Shown one piece after another: positions 7,813-42,607 of a stretch of DNA of 64,000 nt. The DNA is from Oceanimonas pelagia (GTDB lineage Bacteria > Pseudomonadota > Gammaproteobacteria > Enterobacterales > Aeromonadaceae): positions 1,472,001 through 1,536,000 of the forward strand of contig NZ_CP118224.1 of assembly GCF_030849025.1 (NCBI RefSeq), read 5' to 3'. How positions within the stretch are numbered: the stretch's first letter is position 1; each line of letters begins with the position of its first letter. The notes beneath the pieces were generated by a model that saw only the letters and a program-made list of their open reading frames with translations, was not told the DNA's origin and made no database searches. The translations under genes were made by a program, and so were the position numbers.

Positions 7813-7854
7813 CTTATTCCAACATGCAAGAGCCATTTGATTCACCCGGTCGTA

Positions 7855-8400
7855 TCAGGGCCGAATGCTCGCCAGTACCCGGATCCGCTCTTCCAGGGGC
7901 AGGGCCAGGATCAGCGCCTCGCCCGAGGCGGGAAAGCGGCTGGTGAGGGCGGTAATGTTGATCTGGTGGCTGACCAGCACCACCGGCAGCCCCGGCTCCA
8001 GCCCGGCCACAAACTGGCGCAACGCCTGCGTTTGCTCCGAGCGCCGGCTTCGCCGGTAAAAAAACGAGTTGAGCTCGGGTGTGGGCACCACCTCACCCAC
8101 CCCCAGCAGACGGGCGGTGTCCAGTGCGCGGCAAAACTGGCTGCTGTAGATCCTGGCCTCGCCAATGCCGTGGCTGCGCAGCCGTTCGCCCCAGGCCTCG
8201 GCCTGCGCCCGGCCACGGGCGTCGAGATTGCGCTGGGTGTCGCAGCGCTCCAGCACAAAGCCGGGAGGATCACCGGCGCCGGGCGCATTGGCATGGCGCA
8301 TCAGCAGCATGGCACGGCCTTCCTTCAGCGCCAGCCAGGCCTCGGCGTCGGAAGCCTGCACCCCGGTTGGCAGCAACAGCAGCAACAGCATCCATTTCAT
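7855..8400 (-). CDS. Periplasmic histidine phosphatase family protein
   Basis: A 181-residue secreted member of the histidine phosphatase (phosphoglycerate-mutase-like) superfamily. The catalytic RHG-type motif appears as LMRHANAPG, with Arg35-His36 in this numbering. The second catalytic histidine is in VVLVSHQINITALT. The N-terminus MKWMLLLLLLPTGVQA is a signal peptide, so the protein is probably periplasmic. I chose the ATG at 8400 rather than the in-frame ATG at 8415 because AGGA lies five bases upstream of the former. Substrate unknown; secreted members include Ais-like and phytase-like enzymes. Convergent with blc. Confidence 0.85.
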   Translation of the reverse strand: MKWMLLLLLLPTGVQASDAEAWLALKEGRAMLLMRHANAPGAGDPPGFVLERCDTQRNLDARGRAQAEAWGERLRSHGIGEARIYSSQFCRALDTARLLGVGEVVPTPELNSFFYRRSRRSEQTQALRQFVAGLEPGLPVVLVSHQINITALTSRFPASGEALILALPLEERIRVLASIRP

Positions 8401-8472
8401 GAGTATCCTGAGCATGATGTGTCCTCGATGTCGTCAACAGGCAGACCGGGCGCCATTGCCGCCGCTTTCAGT

Positions 8473-8489
8473 TTTTATGCCAACATACA
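8473..8489 (-). promoter_or_regulatory. Ter-like replication arrest site (copy 1)
   Basis: The minus strand reads TGTATGTTGGCATAAAA. All 17 bases are identical to the element just upstream of tus (17508-17524), and the GTATGTTG core is shared with E. coli Ter sites. It lies between two genes, in the 8401-8571 gap, and has the same orientation as the tus copy. Tus binding is inferred. Confidence 0.6.
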
Positions 8490-8571
8490 TTTGTCATCAT
8501 ATCCTTGTCACGTCAGCCACCATGACGGACGATCCCTTCAGTATATTCGGCCATGAAGGGGTCGTTTGTCT

Positions 8572-9174
8572 CTATGATGCCAGACTGGCCACCAGGCTGG
8601 CGGCAAGCTGATCGGCCAGTTGCTCCCAGCCGCCGGCCAGGGCGCGCACCAGGGCCGGGTAACCGTCTGCGGTGAGCGGCGTTTCCAGCCTGAAGGCCCG
8701 TTGCTCCAGCAGCTCGCCGCGACCGTTCAGCAATTGCCAGTGGCCCTGGATCAGGGCCATGCCATCGAAACGGCCCTGAAAGCGATCCAGTTGCAGGCGA
8801 ACTTCACGGGCCGGCATGTTGCCGGCGCTGGGTTGCCCGCGGGCAATCACCTGGGCCTGGGGCAGGCTGGCGCTCAGCCGGTCCAGCAACAGCCGGCGCA
8901 ACTGCTCGGGCAGGGCCTCGGCCCAGAGGTGGTTGCGGGCCTGGTGCACTTCAATGTCGTCGAGCTGCATCACAATGCCGTCCCCCTCGAGAAAGGCGGC
9001 GAGGGCAACGGGCGCCACCAATACCGTCAACCTGGCATCATGCCGTTGCTCGGCACTGCTTGCCGGCAGCAGATAGGCGGCGGTGCCGGGCTCATTGCTG
9101 CCGGCACAGCCGGCAAGGGCCAGGCCGAGCAGCAGCGAAAGGGAACTAAGGCGTTTGGTGTTGAACGGCATCAT
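8572..9174 (-). CDS. pqiC: Intermembrane transport lipoprotein PqiC
   Basis: A 200-residue outer-membrane lipoprotein of the PqiC (ABC transport auxiliary) family. The signal peptide MMPFNTKRLSSLSLLLGLAL leads into the lipobox LAGC (Cys23), followed by Ala. The mature region carries YLLP and the ABC-auxiliary pattern with an NHLWAEALPEQLRRLL helix near residues 81-96. PqiC forms the outer-membrane end of the PqiABC lipid-transport path. The ATG overlaps the pqiB stop as ATGA, so translation is coupled. The next in-frame Met is the following codon and either may be used. Confidence 0.9.
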   Translation of the reverse strand: MMPFNTKRLSSLSLLLGLALAGCAGSNEPGTAAYLLPASSAEQRHDARLTVLVAPVALAAFLEGDGIVMQLDDIEVHQARNHLWAEALPEQLRRLLLDRLSASLPQAQVIARGQPSAGNMPAREVRLQLDRFQGRFDGMALIQGHWQLLNGRGELLEQRAFRLETPLTADGYPALVRALAGGWEQLADQLAASLVASLAS

Positions 9175-10808
9175 TTGGCGGCCCTCGGTTGCGGATCCTG
9201 AGTGGGAGTACGGTCGAAGATCAGGGCGTTGGGCTGATCGTTAAGGGTGCGGATCACCGGCTGTATGTCTGCCATCAGCTGTTCCAGCCGCGACAGGGTC
9301 TGGGTCAGCTCGTTGTAACCTTCCGAGTCGGGGGCAAAGCCTGCCAGGGTGTCGCTGAGCTGGCGCAGGGTCTGGTTGACATTGGCGGGCAGTTCGCCGG
9401 TGGCGGGATCCGCCAGCAGCGCATCCACCGAAGCGGCAATGCGGTTGATCTTGTCCATGGTCTGCTGCGTCGCCACCAGGGTGCTGTTCAGGTTATTGAC
9501 CACGGGCTCGATGTCGAGGTTGTTGAACTTGTCGAGCAGGTTCGAGACTTTCTGCTCAATCTGGGCAAATCCGCCGGTGGTGGTGGGAAATACCCGCCGC
9601 TCGACAAAGGTCATGGCCTTGAAGGGCTCGGCGTCCTTCTGGAAGTTGAGATCCACAAACAGCGCGCCGGTGAGCAGGTTGCCGGCCTTGAGCGAGGCCC
9701 GCAGGCCATGGCCGAACATACGGTTCAGCCGCGCATACCAGGCTTTGGTGTCGATGATTTCGGTGGTGTTGTCAAAGCGCTGGGGCTCAATGCGGATCAG
9801 CACGGGAATGGCGAACCGGCTCAGGGAGTCGGGTTGCGGTGCGGTAAAGTGCCAGGGCACACTGACCACGGAGCCAATGCGCACGCCCCGGTATTCCACC
9901 GGCGCGCCCGGCTCCAGGCCCCGTACCGTGTCGTCCACCAGCAACACGTATTCCAGATATTGCTCATAGCTGCCCTCGTTGGCGCTTTCCTCGTCGGCAA
10001 ACAGCACATAGGTGGCATTGGGTTTGGCCTTGTGGCCCATGGCGGTGTTTTCGGGCACGCCAAAGGTCACGCCGCCGCCCACCAGGGACTCCAGCGAGCC
10101 GACATTGACCCGGAACCCCTGGGAGTCGAGGCGCATGTCGATGCCGGAGCTGGCCCAGAAACGGGTGGTGGTGGTGACCAGCACGTCGTAGGGCGACTGT
10201 ATATACAGCCGCAGCTGCATTTCCCGTTTTTCCGGATCGAATTCGCTGTGCTCCACCCGGCCCACGGTATAGCCCTGATAGCTGACCGGATCGCCGGTAG
10301 ACACGGCGGTGCCTACCTGGCTGATGAGGTTGATGCGCAGACCGGGGGCATCGGGCGGTGCCACCGGCGGTTGTTCCAGCACCTGAAAACGACGTTTGGG
10401 CTGTTCGCTGCTGCCCGGCAGCAACTGAATGTAGGCCCCCGACAGCACGGTATTGAGGCCGCTGATGCCCTCACGGCCAATGCGTGGCTTGACCACCCAG
10501 AAACGGGTCTCGTCGTTGAGCATGTTTTCCGCCTGGGGGCTCATGCGGGCGGTGATCAGCGCATGTTGCAGATCGTCCGACAGCCTGACCCGCTCCACCC
10601 GGCCCACCTCCACGTTGCGGGTCTTGATCAGGGTCTTGCCCGCTTCAATGCCTTCGGCGTTGTCCATTACCAGGGTAATGGAAGGGCCGAGCTTGCTCAG
10701 GTTGTCGTAAATCATCCAGGCGCCGATCAACACCGCCACCAGGGGCACTATCCAGATGGGCGACAGGGAGCGCTGTTTCTTGCGCTCGGCGCGGGGGGTG
10801 TCAGACAT
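9171..10808 (-). CDS. pqiB: Intermembrane transport protein PqiB (MCE protein)
   Basis: A 545-residue MCE-domain protein anchored by one N-terminal membrane helix (IWVPLVAVLIGAWMIYD, about residues 20-36). Three successive MCE domains follow; the first shows VMDNAEGIEAGKTLIKTRNVEVGRV. The C-terminal part is a long helical region (VSNLLDKFNNLDIEPVVNNL onward) that in E. coli PqiB builds a needle-like channel across the periplasm. It carries lipids between membranes with PqiA and PqiC. The frame is open upstream to 10931, but MSDTPRAERKKQ matches the family N-terminus, and this start overlaps the pqiA stop by eight bases, as expected in the operon. Confidence 0.95.
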   Translation of the reverse strand: MSDTPRAERKKQRSLSPIWIVPLVAVLIGAWMIYDNLSKLGPSITLVMDNAEGIEAGKTLIKTRNVEVGRVERVRLSDDLQHALITARMSPQAENMLNDETRFWVVKPRIGREGISGLNTVLSGAYIQLLPGSSEQPKRRFQVLEQPPVAPPDAPGLRINLISQVGTAVSTGDPVSYQGYTVGRVEHSEFDPEKREMQLRLYIQSPYDVLVTTTTRFWASSGIDMRLDSQGFRVNVGSLESLVGGGVTFGVPENTAMGHKAKPNATYVLFADEESANEGSYEQYLEYVLLVDDTVRGLEPGAPVEYRGVRIGSVVSVPWHFTAPQPDSLSRFAIPVLIRIEPQRFDNTTEIIDTKAWYARLNRMFGHGLRASLKAGNLLTGALFVDLNFQKDAEPFKAMTFVERRVFPTTTGGFAQIEQKVSNLLDKFNNLDIEPVVNNLNSTLVATQQTMDKINRIAASVDALLADPATGELPANVNQTLRQLSDTLAGFAPDSEGYNELTQTLSRLEQLMADIQPVIRTLNDQPNALIFDRTPTQDPQPRAAK

Positions 10809-12150
10809 GGTTGGGTTCCTTGCGGTTTTCGTTATGATGCGGTGCGCCACCGGCCAGCGGGGCCCCGGCCCAGATGCTGCGTTGATCAAACAGCATGGCC
10901 GCCAGCATGGTGAGCACCACCACACCGGCAAAGGCCAGGGCCGCCGGGCCGGGCTCGATGGACATCAGGTTGCCGTTGCGAATAAGTGCCACCAGTATGG
11001 CCACCACGAACACATCCACCATCGACCAGCGCCCCACGAACTCGGTAATGCGGTAAAGGCGAATGCGGCTCATGGCGCTGAGGCCGGCCCGATCGCGCCT
11101 GACCACATGGCACAGCCACAGCAGCGCCAGGATCTTGCTCACCGGCACCACCACACTGGCGGTAAAAATGATAAAGGCAATGGGCCAGTCGCCGTGCTGA
11201 ATAAACAACAGCACGCCGCCGATAATGGTGGAGGGCGAGCTGCTGCCCAGGGAGGTGGTTACCATAATGGGGTAGAGGTTGGCGGGCAGATACATGATCA
11301 CCGCCGCCGCCAGCAGGGCCAGGGTGGCCTGGTTGTTGATGCCGTGCCAGGGGTGTAACGGCTCGTCGCAGCGCCGGCAGCGGGCCTTGCCTCGTTCCGG
11401 CAGGGCGTTCACCAGGCCACAGGTGGTGCAGCCGCACAGATTCTGTTCGCTGGCGTTGCGGCCGGGCACGGCGCCGGCCGGTGCCATGCCGCGCCGGTCG
11501 AGGGAAAACCACAGCCAGTCCTTGTCCACCGACTGGGTGGTCAGCAGCAGCAGCAGGGCAAAGGCGCAAAAGGTCCAGAACGACAGGCCGAGTTCAATGT
11601 CGGCCATGCCCACCACCTTGATAAGACTGACAAGCGTACCGATCACGAACACGTCGGCCATCATCCAGGGGCTGACATGGCGCAGGGTGCGGGCAATTTG
11701 CCGGCTGCGGGGCAGCGGCCGGCCCAGCAGCATGCCGGCACACAGCCAGCTTACACTCAGCAGATAAACCAGCGGCAGAATAATCACCGTCAGCAGTACG
11801 CACAGGGCCACCAGCGGCTGGTGCAGGCCAATCAGAATGGCGGCACTGTCGGTAAGCTCAATGCGATTGCCGATGCCACTCAGCTCAAAGCCGATAAAGG
11901 GAAAGGCCACCGACAACGCCAGCGCAATCAGGGTGGCCAGGGCCAGCGCCAGGGAGCGCTCCGCCGGGTTGGCATGGCGGCGCACCAGGGTGTGGCCGCA
12001 ACGGGGGCAGTCGGCTTTTTCTCCGGGGGCCAGGCTCGGCAGCACTACCAGCAAATCACACTCGTGGCACACCCGCAGGCGCCGGCGGGAAATGGCCCGG
12101 CGCCGGTGAGGCTGTGCGGTAAGGGCGGATGAGTGTGGCGAGTCCGACAA
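10801..12150 (-). CDS. pqiA: Intermembrane transport protein PqiA
   Basis: A 449-residue polytopic inner-membrane protein with two tandem PqiA domains, each preceded by a zinc ribbon. The first ribbon has CHEC near residue 29 and CPRC near residue 48; the second has CTTCG near residue 242 and CRRC near residue 257. Each membrane domain has four helices. PqiA is the inner-membrane component that feeds PqiB. Translation probably starts at TTG (12150): AGGTG lies five bases upstream and the MSDSPHSS N-terminus has no better candidate. The pqiABC order is as in E. coli, where it follows uup; here it is 25 kb from uup and on the opposite strand. Confidence 0.94.
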   Translation of the reverse strand: MSDSPHSSALTAQPHRRRAISRRRLRVCHECDLLVVLPSLAPGEKADCPRCGHTLVRRHANPAERSLALALATLIALALSVAFPFIGFELSGIGNRIELTDSAAILIGLHQPLVALCVLLTVIILPLVYLLSVSWLCAGMLLGRPLPRSRQIARTLRHVSPWMMADVFVIGTLVSLIKVVGMADIELGLSFWTFCAFALLLLLTTQSVDKDWLWFSLDRRGMAPAGAVPGRNASEQNLCGCTTCGLVNALPERGKARCRRCDEPLHPWHGINNQATLALLAAAVIMYLPANLYPIMVTTSLGSSSPSTIIGGVLLFIQHGDWPIAFIIFTASVVVPVSKILALLWLCHVVRRDRAGLSAMSRIRLYRITEFVGRWSMVDVFVVAILVALIRNGNLMSIEPGPAALAFAGVVVLTMLAAMLFDQRSIWAGAPLAGGAPHHNENRKEPNHV

Positions 12151-12274
12151 ATGGGCACCTAAAACAATGAAGAATCAGAAGCTTGATACTACGACAGGAG
12201 CGTAACCCGAATAAAGCCGAATCGGTACCGGGGTTAAATGGCGAACGATTGTGTACATATTATGACATTTTTGT

Positions 12275-12301
12275 TTCAGTTATCCGCTGCGCTGCCGATA
12301 G
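12275..12301 (+). promoter_or_regulatory. Putative sigma-28 (FliA) promoter
   Basis: GCCGATAG matches the flagellar sigma -10 consensus GCCGATAA at seven of eight bases. Eleven bases upstream, TTCAGTTA matches TAAAGTTT at five of eight. It is 41 bases before the chemoreceptor start, which is the kind of gene sigma-28 serves. Confidence 0.55.
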
Positions 12302-12342
12302 GTTTTCGATATCAATTCTGACGTGTGCGGTAGGAGAACAAG

Positions 12343-13965
12343 GTGTTTCGCAATATCAATATTGGCCTGAGATCGGCCCTGGCCTTTGGTGCCATCGGTG
12401 TACTGATGCTGATCCTGGGCGGGCTCAGTCTGGTTCAGCTCAACAGTCTCAACGATCAGATCACCCGGCTGGCCACTCACGATGTGCCCAGCCTGACCGC
12501 AGTGGATAATATCGACAAGGAGTTTCTGCGTATTCGCCTGCACAGCCTGGCCCTGGCCAATTCGGCTCAAGCGGAGAAACGGGCCGAGTCCCAGGCCAAC
12601 CTGGAGGCCGCCCGACAACAGCTGGAGGGGTTCAAACAGCAATACGACCGGCTGGCCCGCCTGCCCGAGGCCCGGGCCCTGCTGGCCCGCTTTAATGCCA
12701 CCGAGGCCCGTTACTGGCAGGCGCACACCCGCATTATGGCGCAGGCCAGCCGCGGCGATGTGGCCGGTGCCAATCTGGCCTCACGGCAGGAGCTGGCGCC
12801 GCTGGCCGAGGAGCTGGCCGGGCTGCTGTTTGAGCTTAACCGGGTACAGCATGCGCGCATTGACAGCACCAACACTCAAACCGACCAGGTTTATGCCTTC
12901 TCCCGCAATGTGATCATCGGGCTGCTGGTGCTGGCCCTGGCGGGCATGGGACTGCTGGCCTGGCTGCTGACCCGCAGCATAGTGCAACCCATTGGCGATG
13001 CGGTGCGGGTGGCGGAGGTCATTGCCGGCGGTAACCTGACCCGGCCGGTGGCAGTCACCGGACGCGATGAACCGGCCCGGCTGCTGACCGCCCTCGGCAA
13101 CATGCAGCGCAGCCTGCAGGAAACCGTGCAGCAGATTGCCGACTCCTCCCGTCAGCTGGCTTCCACCTCCGAAGAGCTGAGTTCGGTCACCCAGGAGTCC
13201 ACCCGGGGCCTGCAACGCCAGAGCGAAGAGCTTGAGCAGGCGGCCACGGCGGTGAACGAAATGACCGCGGCGGTGGAAGAGGTGGCACGCAATGCCTCCA
13301 GCACCTCCCAGGAGTCGGAGCTGGCCGATGAACGGGCCCAGTTTGGTCGCGACCGGGTTGGCCAGACCGTTACCGCCATGGAAAGCCTGGCCGGCGACAT
13401 TGGCGACACCATGCACAATATCGAGAGCCTGGCGGTGCGGGTGAACGACATCACCAGTGTACTTGACGTGATCCGCGCCATTGCCGATCAAACCAACCTG
13501 CTGGCCCTGAACGCCGCCATTGAGGCGGCCCGGGCCGGCGAGTCGGGGCGGGGCTTTGCCGTGGTGGCCGACGAGGTGCGGGCGCTGGCGCATCGTACCC
13601 AGGAGTCCACCAAGGAGATCGAGCAGATGATCCAGGCGGTGCAGCGCGGCTCTCAGGAGGCGGTGGTTGCCATGAAGACCAGTAACGAACGTACCACCGA
13701 TACCCTGAATATCGCCCGCGAAGCCGGTGAAGCCCTGGCGCAGATCGCCACCAGCATTTCCGGCATCAATGATCGCAATGTGGCCATCGCCGGCGCCGCC
13801 GAGGAGCAGGCGCACGTGTCCCGGGAGGTGGATGGCAACCTGGTGAACATTCGTGATTTGTCGGTGCAAAGCGCCGCCGGTGCCAACCAGACCAGCGCGT
13901 CCAGCCAGGAGCTGGCCCGTCTGGCCGGTGAGTTGCGTACTCTGGTCGGCCGTTTTGTGATTTAG
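12343..13965 (+). CDS. Methyl-accepting chemotaxis protein with four-helix-bundle sensor
   Basis: A 540-residue chemoreceptor of the Tar/Tsr-like type. TM1 is at about residues 10-32; the periplasmic region, about 150 residues of helices, fits a 4HB_MCP sensor; TM2 ([21 protein letters not shown]) is at about 189-209. HAMP and the signalling domain follow, with the hairpin tip [20 protein letters not shown] at about residue 383. No C-terminal CheR-binding pentapeptide is present. The start is GTG, supported by TAGGAG upstream. A sigma-28-like promoter lies upstream, so expression is probably coupled to flagellar genes elsewhere. It is divergent from pqiA. Ligand unknown. Confidence 0.94.
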
Positions 13966-14000
13966 CCTTGTTGCACAAGGCCGGCGCCGGTTTATTCACA

Positions 14001-14031
14001 AAAAAAAAAAGCCCCGCCGAGCGGGGCTTTT
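14001..14031. terminator. Bidirectional terminator
   Basis: A run of A, then GCCCCGC pairing with GCGGGGC, then TTTT, between the convergent chemoreceptor and aspC genes. The long A-run gives a strong U-tract for aspC on the minus strand. Confidence 0.9.
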
Positions 14032-14051
14032 GATTATGGGCAAGATAAGGC

Positions 14052-15242
14052 TTACAGCACGGCGGCAATGCCGTCGCACAGGGCGTCGATGTTGGCCTTG
14101 GTGATGCCGGCCACGCTGATGCGGCCGGAGCCGACGATGTAGATGCCGAACTCGTCCTTCAGACGGGCCACCTGCTCGGGAGTGAGGCCGGAGAAGGAGA
14201 ACATGCCGTTCTGGCGGGCAATAAAGCTGAAATCGGTGCTCACGCCCCGGGCGGCCAGCTTTTCCACGAACAGGGTGCGCATTTCCTGAATGCGGTCACG
14301 CATTTCCTTAAGCTCGGCCTGCCAGTCGGCATACAGCTCGGGATCGTTGGCAATAATGGCCACCACATTGGCGCCGTGGGAAGGCGGGTTGGAGTAGTTG
14401 GCGCGAATAATGCTTTTTATCTGGCTGAAGCTGGTAGTGGCGGTGTCGGCATCCCTGGCCACCAGGGTAAAGGCACCCACGCGCTCGTTGTAGAGGCCGA
14501 AGTTCTTGGAGAAGGAGCTGGCAATCAGCAGCTCGGGGTTGTGCCTGGCAAACTCGCGCAAACCAAAGGCGTCTTCTTCAATGCCACGGGCGAAGCCCTG
14601 GTAGGCGAAGTCGAACATCGGCAGCCAGCCCTTGTCGGCGGCCAGTTTGGCCAGTTGCTGCCACTGCTCGGCGGTGGGGTCAATGCCGGTGGGGTTGTGG
14701 CAGCAGCCGTGGAACAGTACCACATCGCCGGCCTTGGCATCGGCCAGGCTGGCCAGCATGGCGTCGAAGTCCAGATCCTTGGTGTCGGCGTTGTAGTAGC
14801 CGTATTCCTTCACCTCCAGGCCGGCGGCGGTAAACACGGCGCGGTGGTTGGCCCAGGTGGGGTTGGAAATCCAGATGGTGTTGGTGTCGAGCTGGCGGGC
14901 GATGAACTCGCCGGCAATGCGCAGGGCACCGGTGCCGCCCGGCGCCTGGGCGGTGCGGGCACGCTGCTCGGCAATAATGCTGGCGTCGGCGCCGAACAGC
15001 AGTTTCTGCACGACCTGCCCATAGGCCTCAATGCCTTCTATGCTGAGATAGTTTTTGGTGGTTTGCTCCTGCACCAGGCGCGCTTCGGCTTTCTTCACGC
15101 AACGCAGTACCGGGGTCTGGCCGGCTTCGTCTTTGTAGATGCCGACACCCAGGTTGATTTTGTCGGTACGGGCATCTTTACGGAACGCATCGGTCAGACC
15201 CAGAATGGGGTCGGCCGGTGCAGCAGTGACCTTCTCGAACAT
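14052..15242 (-). CDS. aspC: Aspartate/aromatic aminotransferase
   Basis: A 396-residue class I PLP aminotransferase that interconverts aspartate and 2-oxoglutarate with oxaloacetate and glutamate, and can act on aromatic amino acids. It matches E. coli AspC nearly end to end from [16 protein letters not shown]. The PLP lysine is Lys246 in [15 protein letters not shown], Asp211 and Tyr214 lie in [10 protein letters not shown], and the substrate-carboxylate arginine is in GSGRISVAG near residue 374. AspC and TyrB share these features; the N-terminus favours AspC. It is monocistronic, ends at a strong terminator and lies downstream of the exporter gene on the same strand. Confidence 0.94.
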
Positions 15243-15356
15243 AGTCTTGTCAATTCCTTCTTGTAAAAGCGAGTGTGGTCGCCAAGCGACGGCTGTTAGT
15301 TATATCACTTGCGCCGGTATTAAAAAATGGCTTTGCGGGGAATTTGCCGGGTATTG

Positions 15357-16547
15357 TTACCCGCCGGCGACCAGGGCCGGGCGCACCAGCAGCCAGTAAC
15401 TGGCCAGGGCCAGCCAGGCACACAGACTCATGACCAGTGCCATGGGCAGGGCGGAGACCGCATGACTGACATTGACCGCGAAGGTGGCCACCGCCCCCAG
15501 GCCAAAGCGCACCGTACCGGCCAGGGCGGAGGCGGTGCCGGCGGCCTCGGGAAAGTGACTGAGCAGCCCGGCCATGGCGTTGGCGCCCACCAGGCTGATT
15601 TGCGCAATCAGTACCATCACCGCCGGCACCAGTCCCCACAGGCCGCCAAACCCGGTGATGCCATTGAACAGCAGCACGATCCCGGCCAGCGCCGCCAGGG
15701 TGAGGCCGGTTTTCAGCAGCCGGTCACTGCCCAGATGTTTCACCAGCCGGCTGTTGCCAAAGGTCAGCACCATCATCAGCACTATGTTCATGGCAAACAA
15801 CAGGCCATAGTGCTGGGCCGGCACGCCGTAGAGTTCGATGTACACCAGTGGTGAGCCGGAGATAAACGCAAACATGGCGGCGGTGGTCAGGCCGCCGCAG
15901 CCGATATAGCCGACCGCCGCCCGGTGGCGCAGCACCTTGCCGTAGTTTTGCAGCACCGGCCACAACCGGAATGGCTGGCGATGTTCGGGCTTCAGGGTTT
16001 CGGGTATGCGCCAGGCCAGTGCCAGGGTCACCAGGGTGCCGATGATCGCCAGCAGCACGAAAATGCTGTGCCAGTGACCGACCAGCAGCAGGTAGCCGCC
16101 AACGATGGGGGCCACCAGCGGCGCCAGGGTCATGACCAGGATCACCAATGACATCACCCGGGCAAACATGTCCCGTTCAAACATGTCTCGCAGCAGGGCG
16201 TTGAGCACCACGGAGCCGGCGGCACCCCCCAGTGCCTGCAACAGCCGAAAGGTCATCAGGGTTTCAATGCTGTCGGCAACGGCGCAGCCGATGCTGGCCA
16301 GGGTAAACAGCGCCAGTCCGCCGAGCATGACCGGCTTGCGGCCCACGGTGTCGGCCAGCGGGCCGTAAAACAGCTGCCCCAGGGCAAACCCCGCCAGAAA
16401 CACGCTGATGGTGAGCTGGGCCTGGGACACCGGCACCCCCAGATCCCGCGCTATGGTGGGCAGGCTGGGCAGATACATGTCGATGGCCAGGGGAGTCAGC
16501 CCGGCCAGGCTGGCCAGTAACAACAACAATGAAAAGGGCAGGGCCAT
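15357..16547 (-). CDS. Bcr/CflA family drug exporter (MFS)
   Basis: A 396-residue major facilitator with twelve predicted membrane helices. The Bcr/CflA signature DMYLPSLPTIA is at about residues 23-33, and the MFS motif A region appears as YGPLADTVGRKPVM at about residues 61-74. Proteins of this family expel small drugs such as bicyclomycin, chloramphenicol or sulfonamides by proton antiport; the substrate here cannot be told. The start follows an untranslated gap of 57 bases after tus in transcription order, so co-transcription with tus is possible. It resembles E. coli Bcr, but I do not assign the symbol. Confidence 0.9.
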   Translation of the reverse strand: MALPFSLLLLLASLAGLTPLAIDMYLPSLPTIARDLGVPVSQAQLTISVFLAGFALGQLFYGPLADTVGRKPVMLGGLALFTLASIGCAVADSIETLMTFRLLQALGGAAGSVVLNALLRDMFERDMFARVMSLVILVMTLAPLVAPIVGGYLLLVGHWHSIFVLLAIIGTLVTLALAWRIPETLKPEHRQPFRLWPVLQNYGKVLRHRAAVGYIGCGGLTTAAMFAFISGSPLVYIELYGVPAQHYGLLFAMNIVLMMVLTFGNSRLVKHLGSDRLLKTGLTLAALAGIVLLFNGITGFGGLWGLVPAVMVLIAQISLVGANAMAGLLSHFPEAAGTASALAGTVRFGLGAVATFAVNVSHAVSALPMALVMSLCAWLALASYWLLVRPALVAGG

Positions 16548-16604
16548 AAGGTCACCAGAAGTTACAAAAGAAACATCATGATAGCACTGCCGTCGGCCCC
16601 CTTG

Positions 16605-17504
16605 TCAGGGCGTGTAAGGATAAATATGCAACCGGGGGATCAGCGGCTCGCCGCCAATGCGGGCGGCCCGGCGCTTGCGGGGTTTGGCGGGCGGGTAATC
16701 ACACAGGGGAGTCACCGCCGGGGGGGCGTCCTGACACAGCAGCAGGGGTAAATGGGCTTTGTACTGCTGCTGGCGGGGAGTGAGCGGCTCGCTCCAGCGC
16801 ACATTGACCATGGGGTGGGTTTTTACCGGCCGGCGCAGGCGCAGTTCCACATGTGCCGGCAGGCGTTTAACGTCGTAAATTTCCCGATCCACACACTGCA
16901 TCCAGGTATGTGGATCGGTCAGCGGAGGCGGGTTCAGCCGGCTTTGCATCAGCTGCGCCACCAGCTTTTGTTTGTCGACTTTTTGAATAATCTGCTTGTT
17001 GGCCCAGGTAAAGCCCAGCCGTGAAGCCCCATGAGGCAGCAGGGTCAGCTGGCGATAAACCTGCAGGGTAATGAGCCCGGGAAAGGTGTCGTGCACCAGG
17101 GTGAATTTCTTGTCTTTATCGTCCAGCCGCTGCACCAGGGCACGAAAGGCGAGTTTGAGCCGGTTAACCTCGTTGAGCCGAGGCTCAAGCTCGGCCCGAG
17201 CAGAGGCGGGCAGCACGATAAACCCCGGCAGCCGAAAACTGGCCTTGGCGGAGCAGTCGGGCTGAAGATGCCAGCGGCCATAGGCGGAAAGGGCAGCGTT
17301 GAGGGCGGCCTTGCCGGTGACTTGTTCCTGCACCGGAATGTGCTCAACGGGATCGTGCTCCTTGCCCTGGGGTACCTCGGGCAGGCGATAGCAGCAGGCC
17401 AGGGGGGGAGTTCCGGCCCGTTCGTTAATCAGGCCGCGCAAATCGGCGAGGGCCGACTCCAGCAAGGACATGGTGTGATTCAGCTCGGCGGCGAGGGTGA
17501 ACAT
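16605..17504 (-). CDS. tus: Replication terminus site-binding protein Tus
   Basis: A 299-residue homologue of E. coli Tus (309 residues), the monomeric protein that binds Ter DNA and blocks replication forks from one side. Recognisable blocks are the N-terminal TLAAELNHTMSLLESALADL (E. coli DLVDRLNTTFRQMEQELAIF), CYRLPEV, LPGLITLQVYRQLTLL, the DNA-contacting GFTWANKQIIQK, RRPVKTHPM and the C-terminal IPRLHIY. The frame runs upstream to a GTG at 17525, but the ATG at 17504 aligns with the E. coli N-terminus and leaves the Ter-like element just outside the gene. In E. coli, TerB overlaps the tus promoter and Tus represses itself; the same layout here suggests autoregulation. Tus was classically described in enterobacteria and related plasmids. 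Confidence 0.9.
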   Translation of the reverse strand: MFTLAAELNHTMSLLESALADLRGLINERAGTPPLACCYRLPEVPQGKEHDPVEHIPVQEQVTGKAALNAALSAYGRWHLQPDCSAKASFRLPGFIVLPASARAELEPRLNEVNRLKLAFRALVQRLDDKDKKFTLVHDTFPGLITLQVYRQLTLLPHGASRLGFTWANKQIIQKVDKQKLVAQLMQSRLNPPPLTDPHTWMQCVDREIYDVKRLPAHVELRLRRPVKTHPMVNVRWSEPLTPRQQQYKAHLPLLLCQDAPPAVTPLCDYPPAKPRKRRAARIGGEPLIPRLHIYPYTP

Positions 17505-17507
17505 ATA

Positions 17508-17524
17508 TTTTATGCCAACATACA
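17508..17524 (-). promoter_or_regulatory. Ter-like site at tus (copy 2)
   Basis: TGTATGTTGGCATAAAA on the minus strand ends three bases before the tus ATG. It shares the GTATGTTG core with E. coli TerB, which also lies at the tus promoter, and is identical over 17 bases to 8473-8489. It overlaps where the tus ribosome site would be, and no Shine-Dalgarno sequence is evident there. Confidence 0.7.
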
Positions 17525-17633
17525 CATGGTGCGATTAATAATAGCCCGTCTGAAAGAAAACACAATCCTTAAGCAGCAGCACGGTTCACAGGGTTTTTAT
17601 TTAACATAAACACTCGAGGTACGTAGATGTCAT

Positions 17634-32929: not shown

Positions 32930-33006
<77 letters not shown>

Positions 33007-33043
33007 GCCGGTGTAATCACTTTTTGATGCTTGCAATATCAGT

Positions 33044-33120
<77 letters not shown>

Positions 33121-33162
33121 CCGATAACTGATAATGCCATTGTGTCGCTGGTGTTGACCGGT

Positions 33163-33239
<77 letters not shown>

Positions 33240-33273
33240 GCCGGTAACACATCAACGTACACTGTCTGAGAAC

Positions 33274-33350
<77 letters not shown>

Positions 33351-42579: not shown

Positions 42580-42607
42580 ATTTAACATAATATACATTAT
42601 GCGAAGT
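42580..42607 (-). other. dif: Chromosome dimer resolution site dif
   Basis: The minus strand reads ACTTCGCATAA (XerC arm), TGTATA (central region) and TTATGTTAAAT (XerD arm). The XerD arm and the central region are identical to E. coli dif and 24 of 28 bases match overall, with all four differences at the outer end of the XerC arm. XerC and XerD recombine here under FtsK control to resolve chromosome dimers. The switch in KOPS strand at this point agrees. Confidence 0.97.

Follow-up and report, generated by a model that had tools for sequence, protein, structure and literature searches.

The stretch analysed here (the window, 64 kb, positions 1,472,001-1,536,000 of the single 3,592,406-bp contig of Oceanimonas pelagia, NZ_CP118224.1) carries a gene for Tus, the protein partner of the Ter sites in the Tus-Ter replication fork trap, and a 17-mer that occurs twice, once directly in front of that gene. 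The features concerned are given below, with window coordinates except where genome positions are indicated.

7814..7827, minus strand: weaker Ter-like site, GCATGTTGGAATAA, trap-oriented (G(6) end towards dif), between reading frames
8473..8489, minus strand: second putative Ter site, the identical 17-mer, intergenic (genome 1480473-1480489)
16605..17504, minus strand: tus, 299 amino acids, ATG at 17504, PF05472 match
17508..17524, minus strand: putative Ter site adjoining tus, TGTATGTTGGCATAAAA, core GTATGTTGGCATAA, innermost site on the left (genome 1489508-1489524)
17538..17565, minus strand: candidate tus promoter, TTGTGT (17565-17560), 16-bp spacer, TATTAT (17543-17538)
42580..42605, minus strand: dif; the nearest putative Ter site is 25 kb away on the left side and 28 kb away on the right
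genome 1542584, 1546222 and 1599629, plus strand, outside the window: three putative right-hand Ter sites

The tus gene and the 17-mer in front of it

The 299-residue protein matches PF05472 over the entire profile (positions 1-296 of 296) with 321 bits, for a cut-off of 22, and its predicted fold is that of Tus. The closest named relatives are Tus proteins of Oceanimonas (75-82% identity), then those of Zobellella and Oceanisphaera (60-70%) and of Aeromonas (45-50%). The residues F140, H144 and G149, whose roles in holding C(6) are described for Tus of Escherichia coli (PMC10331603, Table 1), are identical in the Tus alignments.

An earlier note on this DNA had reported two identical 17-mers, with no other copy noticed, one of them ending three bases short of the start codon of a Tus homologue. 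Both observations hold. Exact copies of TGTATGTTGGCATAAAA were found on the minus strand at 8473-8489 and at 17508-17524, and a search allowing up to 3 mismatches gave no third copy in the window. When the window was shuffled, the mean was 0.05 matches per shuffle and none of 100 shuffles contained two or more. The copy at 8473-8489 sits between two minus-strand frames with Pfam matches (7855-8415 and 8572-9174). The site GCATGTTGGAATAA at 7814-7827, absent from the earlier note, has one mismatch to the core GNATGTTGGCATAA and the same orientation as both 17-mers; it may be degenerate.

We considered a longer tus frame starting at GTG 17525, which would place the Ter site inside the gene. This start is unlikely, because the distance from core to ATG varies among the relatives, being 3, 4, 5, 7, 9 or 18 bp. 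The candidate promoter is weak by itself, since 39 of 200 shuffles score equally high. Among the 23 genomes surveyed below, a -10-like box begins 18-20 bp before the core in 20, and few of the single promoters exceed their shuffles. With the box in this place, Ter would fall just after the transcription start, where the ribosome-binding site is expected. In E. coli terB is located within the tus promoter region (PMC8347550) and, by analogy, Tus likely represses its own gene here through the site at its start region.

Arrangement of the sites about dif

The search for TGTATGTTGGCATAAAA over the complete chromosome at up to 3 mismatches gave 11 places, five with 0-2 mismatches and six with 3, and a control pattern with the letters reversed gave one. 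All five of the better sites fall within 119 kb around dif (1,480,473 to 1,599,645), two on the minus strand to the left (1,480,473 and 1,489,508) and three on the plus strand to the right (1,542,584, 1,546,222 and 1,599,629), with the G(6) end facing dif in 5/5. About four to ten copies in opposed orientations around dif had been predicted for a Ter sequence, and this is what the chromosome contains. The single dif (1,514,580-1,514,605) has 0 mismatches to what we take to be the dif pattern. Between about 1,490 and 1,540 kb the GC skew reverses its sign, and octamers resembling FtsK-orienting polar sequences (KOPS) switch strand there as well; dnaA has its best match at 3,253,257, which puts the opposite point near 1,457 kb. 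The six 3-mismatch places are scattered away from dif.

Near dif there are four exact cores GNATGTTGGCATAA, where 0.04 would be expected genome-wide. Within 360 kb around dif there are three more sites with one mismatch to GNATGTTGGCATAA, all trap-oriented and including the weak copy at 7814-7827, and five with two mismatches, of which one is trap-oriented. A de novo family search in the same genome also ranked Ter with its top families. The innermost sites delimit a zone of 53 kb. Counting exact cores, the site adjacent to tus is the innermost on its arm (rank 1 of 2), which corresponds to a type I trap as defined by Toft 2021. Ter sites of the E. coli type were also looked for in these 360 kb: none was within 1 mismatch of GNATGTTGTAACTAA, and the seven found at 2-3 mismatches (5/7 trap-oriented) were dismissed as chance.

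The GTDB genus to which O. pelagia belongs takes in Oceanimonas, Oceanisphaera and Zobellella and is represented here by 23 genomes. Both a tus match and the core GNATGTTGGCATAA just upstream of it are present in 23/23. The core ends 3-9 bp before the ATG in 20 genomes and 18 bp before it in two; the start was not located in G049, and in the Candidatus Oceanisphaera record matched to this genome the core lies 30 bp before the protein match. There are 143 exact cores (4-11 per genome), inexact sites being left out of this count. dif was found in 21 of the 23 genomes, and 96 of the cores lie on dif-bearing contigs (19 genomes), every one of them trap-oriented (96/96). At position 7 the 143 cores have T in 119 cases, C in 22 and A in two, a variability that recalls the free position 7 of E. 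coli Ter.

Several features are shared with the Tus-Ter system of E. coli and other Enterobacterales: the Tus fold, the C(6)-holding residues, a polar, non-palindromic site that starts with G(6)N(7)ATGTTG and stands at the start of tus, and opposed groups of sites about dif with the G(6) end, which is the non-permissive end in E. coli (PMC8707476), towards it. The differences lie in the second half of the site and in the protein, which is about 33% identical to E. coli Tus. Out of the 12 core positions of E. coli Ter (6 and 8-18; PMC10331603, legend), eight agree here (6, 8-13 and 16), which leaves these sites outside the E. coli type. Positions 14-18 read GCATA here and TAACT there, with the A at 16 shared, and the distance from the site to the ATG is 3 bp, compared with 11 bp for TerB. 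With the letters that we assume for E. coli TerB, 11-14 of 23 positions match. The vicinal Ter sites of Enterobacterales are 74-83% identical to TerB (PMC8707476).

The type I traps of Toft 2021 (Edwardsiella, Dickeya) also have the tus-adjacent Ter innermost on its arm and are narrow, as is the 53-kb zone here. Unlike them, O. pelagia has a different Ter sequence and, on each arm, two exact sites in addition to weaker ones. Across the genus, 15 genomes have tus and dif on the same contig, and in 6 of these the tus-adjacent site is innermost. The RTP-ter system of Bacillus subtilis works in the same manner, with polar fork barriers about the terminus, although both its protein and its sites are unrelated (PMC6549158, PMC8347550).

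Tus and Ter in other lineages

Aeromonas (genus g2) has a tus match in 37/37 genomes. The core is absent from 28 upstream regions of this genus and was found in 0/30 named loci (one of them with only 22 bp upstream), and in two 400-kb terminus regions (200 kb on each side of dif) no site was within 1 mismatch of either core. The trait thus covers less than the Aeromonadales as a whole, Aeromonas having tus and lacking such a site wherever we looked. In the seven genomes measured, tus is 553-837 kb from dif (7/7).

Upstream of Aeromonas tus (loci L033-L061 and L160-L189), at about 63-90 bp, there is a conserved TTATTTATACAGT block in 24 of 30 named loci, where it reads TTATTTA[TC]ACAGT. It resembles half of a LexA box, or may be what the Aeromonas Tus binds. 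As a Ter candidate this block was rejected: searching seven Aeromonas genomes and G038 for GTATGGTTATTTATACAGTA at up to 3 mismatches gave the tus copy (0-2 mismatches) in six genomes and one 3-mismatch place, G036 having only a 3-mismatch place and G038 none. Sliding 14-mers over the block gave no clean trap-oriented family in the two 400-kb regions. The de novo family search found nothing convincing there either; its anti-oriented control is uninformative, each family being recounted as its reverse complement.

Within the same family, G038, the sole genome of genus g3, has GTATGATGGCATAA ending 15 bp before the tus ATG. Four further copies, one of which has C at position 7, lie no more than 180 kb from dif; all five are trap-oriented (5/5), and Ter is among the top families of the de novo search in this genome as well. 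The Tus tree leaves the placement of G038 unsettled (support 88/54, long branches). More widely, a tus match is present in 70 of 295 genomes drawn from the order. In family f19, taken for the Enterobacteriaceae, GNATGTTGTAACTA stands upstream of tus in 11/11 loci read out of 18 fetched. Of a further 20 upstream regions, taken from 19 genomes of other families, 10 have no [AG]NATGNTG site within 300 bp.

Moritella (genus g6) has tus in 11 genomes, and GCATGATGGTCTA starts 74-83 bp before the protein match in 5/5 genomes read (loci L214, L219, L228, L230 and L231); one of these genomes has a second tus without an upstream GCATGATGGTCTA. Five genomes (G075, G121, G157, G186 and G234) contain 15 exact copies, with about 0.6 expected per genome. 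In the four with dif, 12/12 exact copies are trap-oriented, and 8/8 when the tus-adjacent ones are set aside; G075, in which no dif was found, was left out of this count. Among the sites with one mismatch 24/53 are trap-oriented. The Tus of Moritella is related to those of Vibrio anguillarum and of an Edwardsiella tarda plasmid. The Tus of a Salinimonas-like genome (G175) shares 61-62% identity with that of Salinimonas. In this genome (400 kb around dif, L232-L251; also L215 and L218) tus is about 5 kb from dif and is preceded by GTATGGTGCCGTAA; another two exact copies lie no more than 75 kb from dif, and all are trap-oriented (3/3). The two-mismatch sites of G175 are trap-oriented in 9/13 cases, and G283, of the same genus, also has the GTATGGTGCCGTAA core upstream of tus.

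What is common to the sites of all these lineages is G(6), A(8)T(9)G(10) and T(12)G(13), with T, A or G at position 11, and this lock half is followed by TAACTA, GCATAA, GTCTA or CCGTAA depending on the lineage. The different spellings indicate a nearly constant lock half and another half that follows the lineage. At the place of R241 of E. coli Tus there is Arg in the 10 rows of Enterobacteriaceae type and in G068 (its upstream sequence contains GTATGATGTAAC). The GCAT and GTCT types have Asn instead, as does Aeromonas Tus, and the CCGT type has Ser. Our literature searches for contact residues yielded no Tus-Ter contact map.

G084 (L217, family f11) has tus within 6 kb of dif and no [AG]NATGNTG within 300 bp upstream. 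In G146 (L216, matched to Aliagarivorans taiwanensis), the stretch of about 165 bp upstream of tus contains GCATGATGGTTTAA twice, along with two sequences that resemble it; this may be a further Ter spelling or a tandem operator. The Tus encoded by the draft genome G068 (L193, genus g5) is very distant, with about 29-32% identity to the others in the comparison. Upstream of its gene stands GTATGATGTAACAATA, in which position 11 is A and the second half resembles that of E. coli.

Interpretation and alternatives

Judging from the sequences compared, the sites in O. pelagia are very probably the Ter sites of a Tus-Ter replication fork trap, with a second half diverged from that of E. coli; we regard them as a new Ter specificity of a known system. 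Each site would be bound by Tus in one orientation. A replication fork that has passed dif would meet the G(6) end and unwind the G-C(6) pair; C(6), once released, would dock in the pocket formed by the equivalents of F140, H144 and G149, locking the complex, while forks from the opposite side would pass. With such one-way sites, forks would enter but not leave the 53-kb zone around dif. Tus bound at its own start region would limit tus expression. The lock half would be positions 6 and 8-13, as in E. coli, and positions 14-18, of which only 16 is shared with E. coli, would be the lineage-specific part, read by correspondingly different Tus residues.

The earlier note had proposed the Ter of a non-enterobacterial Tus with a diverged, lineage-specific second half. 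From the dif layout that holds across the genus and the other spellings in other lineages, we find this inference right and more general than stated. It had also supposed that the contact residues of Tus changed to match; that these residues changed in step with the second half of Ter is only hinted at by the correlation of residue 241 with the Ter class.

The same observations could be read in other ways. The sites might be Tus operators or relics of a trap, still serving self-repression with forks no longer arrested, for instance because the changed half or the loss of R198 weakens the complex. The Pro found at the R198 position in 27 of 29 aligned rows would fit this; however, sites away from tus are kept in trap orientation, for which self-repression has no need, and the C(6)-pocket residues are kept too, so that we consider it unlikely. 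A polar signal for some other terminus protein (FtsK-orienting or macrodomain), standing before tus by coincidence, would account for the oriented clustering about dif. Yet exact cores number 4-11 per genome, well below the count of KOPS-like octamers, the core is found just before tus in 23/23 genomes with a first half as in E. coli Ter, and further tus lineages carry their own variant at the same place, all of which makes such a signal very improbable. A chance repeat with no function has a negligible likelihood, being contradicted by the shuffles, by the clustering in the genome and by the core in 23/23 genomes.

Several points nevertheless weigh against a fork trap at these sites. The Tus of O. 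pelagia has Pro at the R198 position and Gly at that of E47, neither residue of E. coli Tus being kept, and R198 is said to help slow the fork. For 47 of the 143 cores the orientation could not be judged, as their contigs carry no dif, and the 96/96 represent far fewer independent events because the genomes are related. The 3-mismatch places elsewhere in the O. pelagia chromosome are trap-oriented by nearest arc in 5/6 cases, too few to be informative. Aeromonas has Tus and no such sites in the two terminus regions read, so a Tus homologue alone does not imply this trap.

Resident tus genes have been described in most Enterobacteriales, in Pseudoalteromonas and in Aeromonadales (Galli 2019, PMC6549158), and reviews repeat the presence in Aeromonadales. 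On the strength of tus being present, Aeromonadales and Pseudoalteromonas have been credited with fork traps. The parts of Galli 2019 available to us give no Aeromonadales Ter sequence, and its section on resident tus, as far as available, does not list a Moritella-like clade; Toft 2021 (PMC8707476) covers Enterobacterales. For a Pseudoalteromonas chromid, a search with the E. coli ter consensus gave nothing near the expected region and a divergent sequence was proposed (Xie 2021, PMC7858055). Our literature searches, which extended to neither subscription papers nor supplements, found no report of the Ter sites described here.

Taken across lineages, Tus-Ter is probably a set of specificity classes, each with a near-constant lock half, GNATG(T/A/G)TG, a lineage-specific half (TAACTA, GCATAA, GTCTA or CCGTAA) and a Tus of its own to read it. 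On this view Moritella and a Salinimonas relative, which fall outside the three clades reported with resident tus, would have dif-centred traps too. The Tus of one class may fail to recognise the Ter of another. Reading the site before tus lineage by lineage gives the Ter sequence and the trap layout together, and separates the conserved part of Ter, the lock half, from the part that can change. It also makes natural Tus-Ter pairs available for tests of specificity, and whether the Aeromonas Tus traps forks becomes a testable matter.

Elsewhere in the window, four tandem tRNA-Met (CAT) genes lie on the minus strand at 32930-33350.

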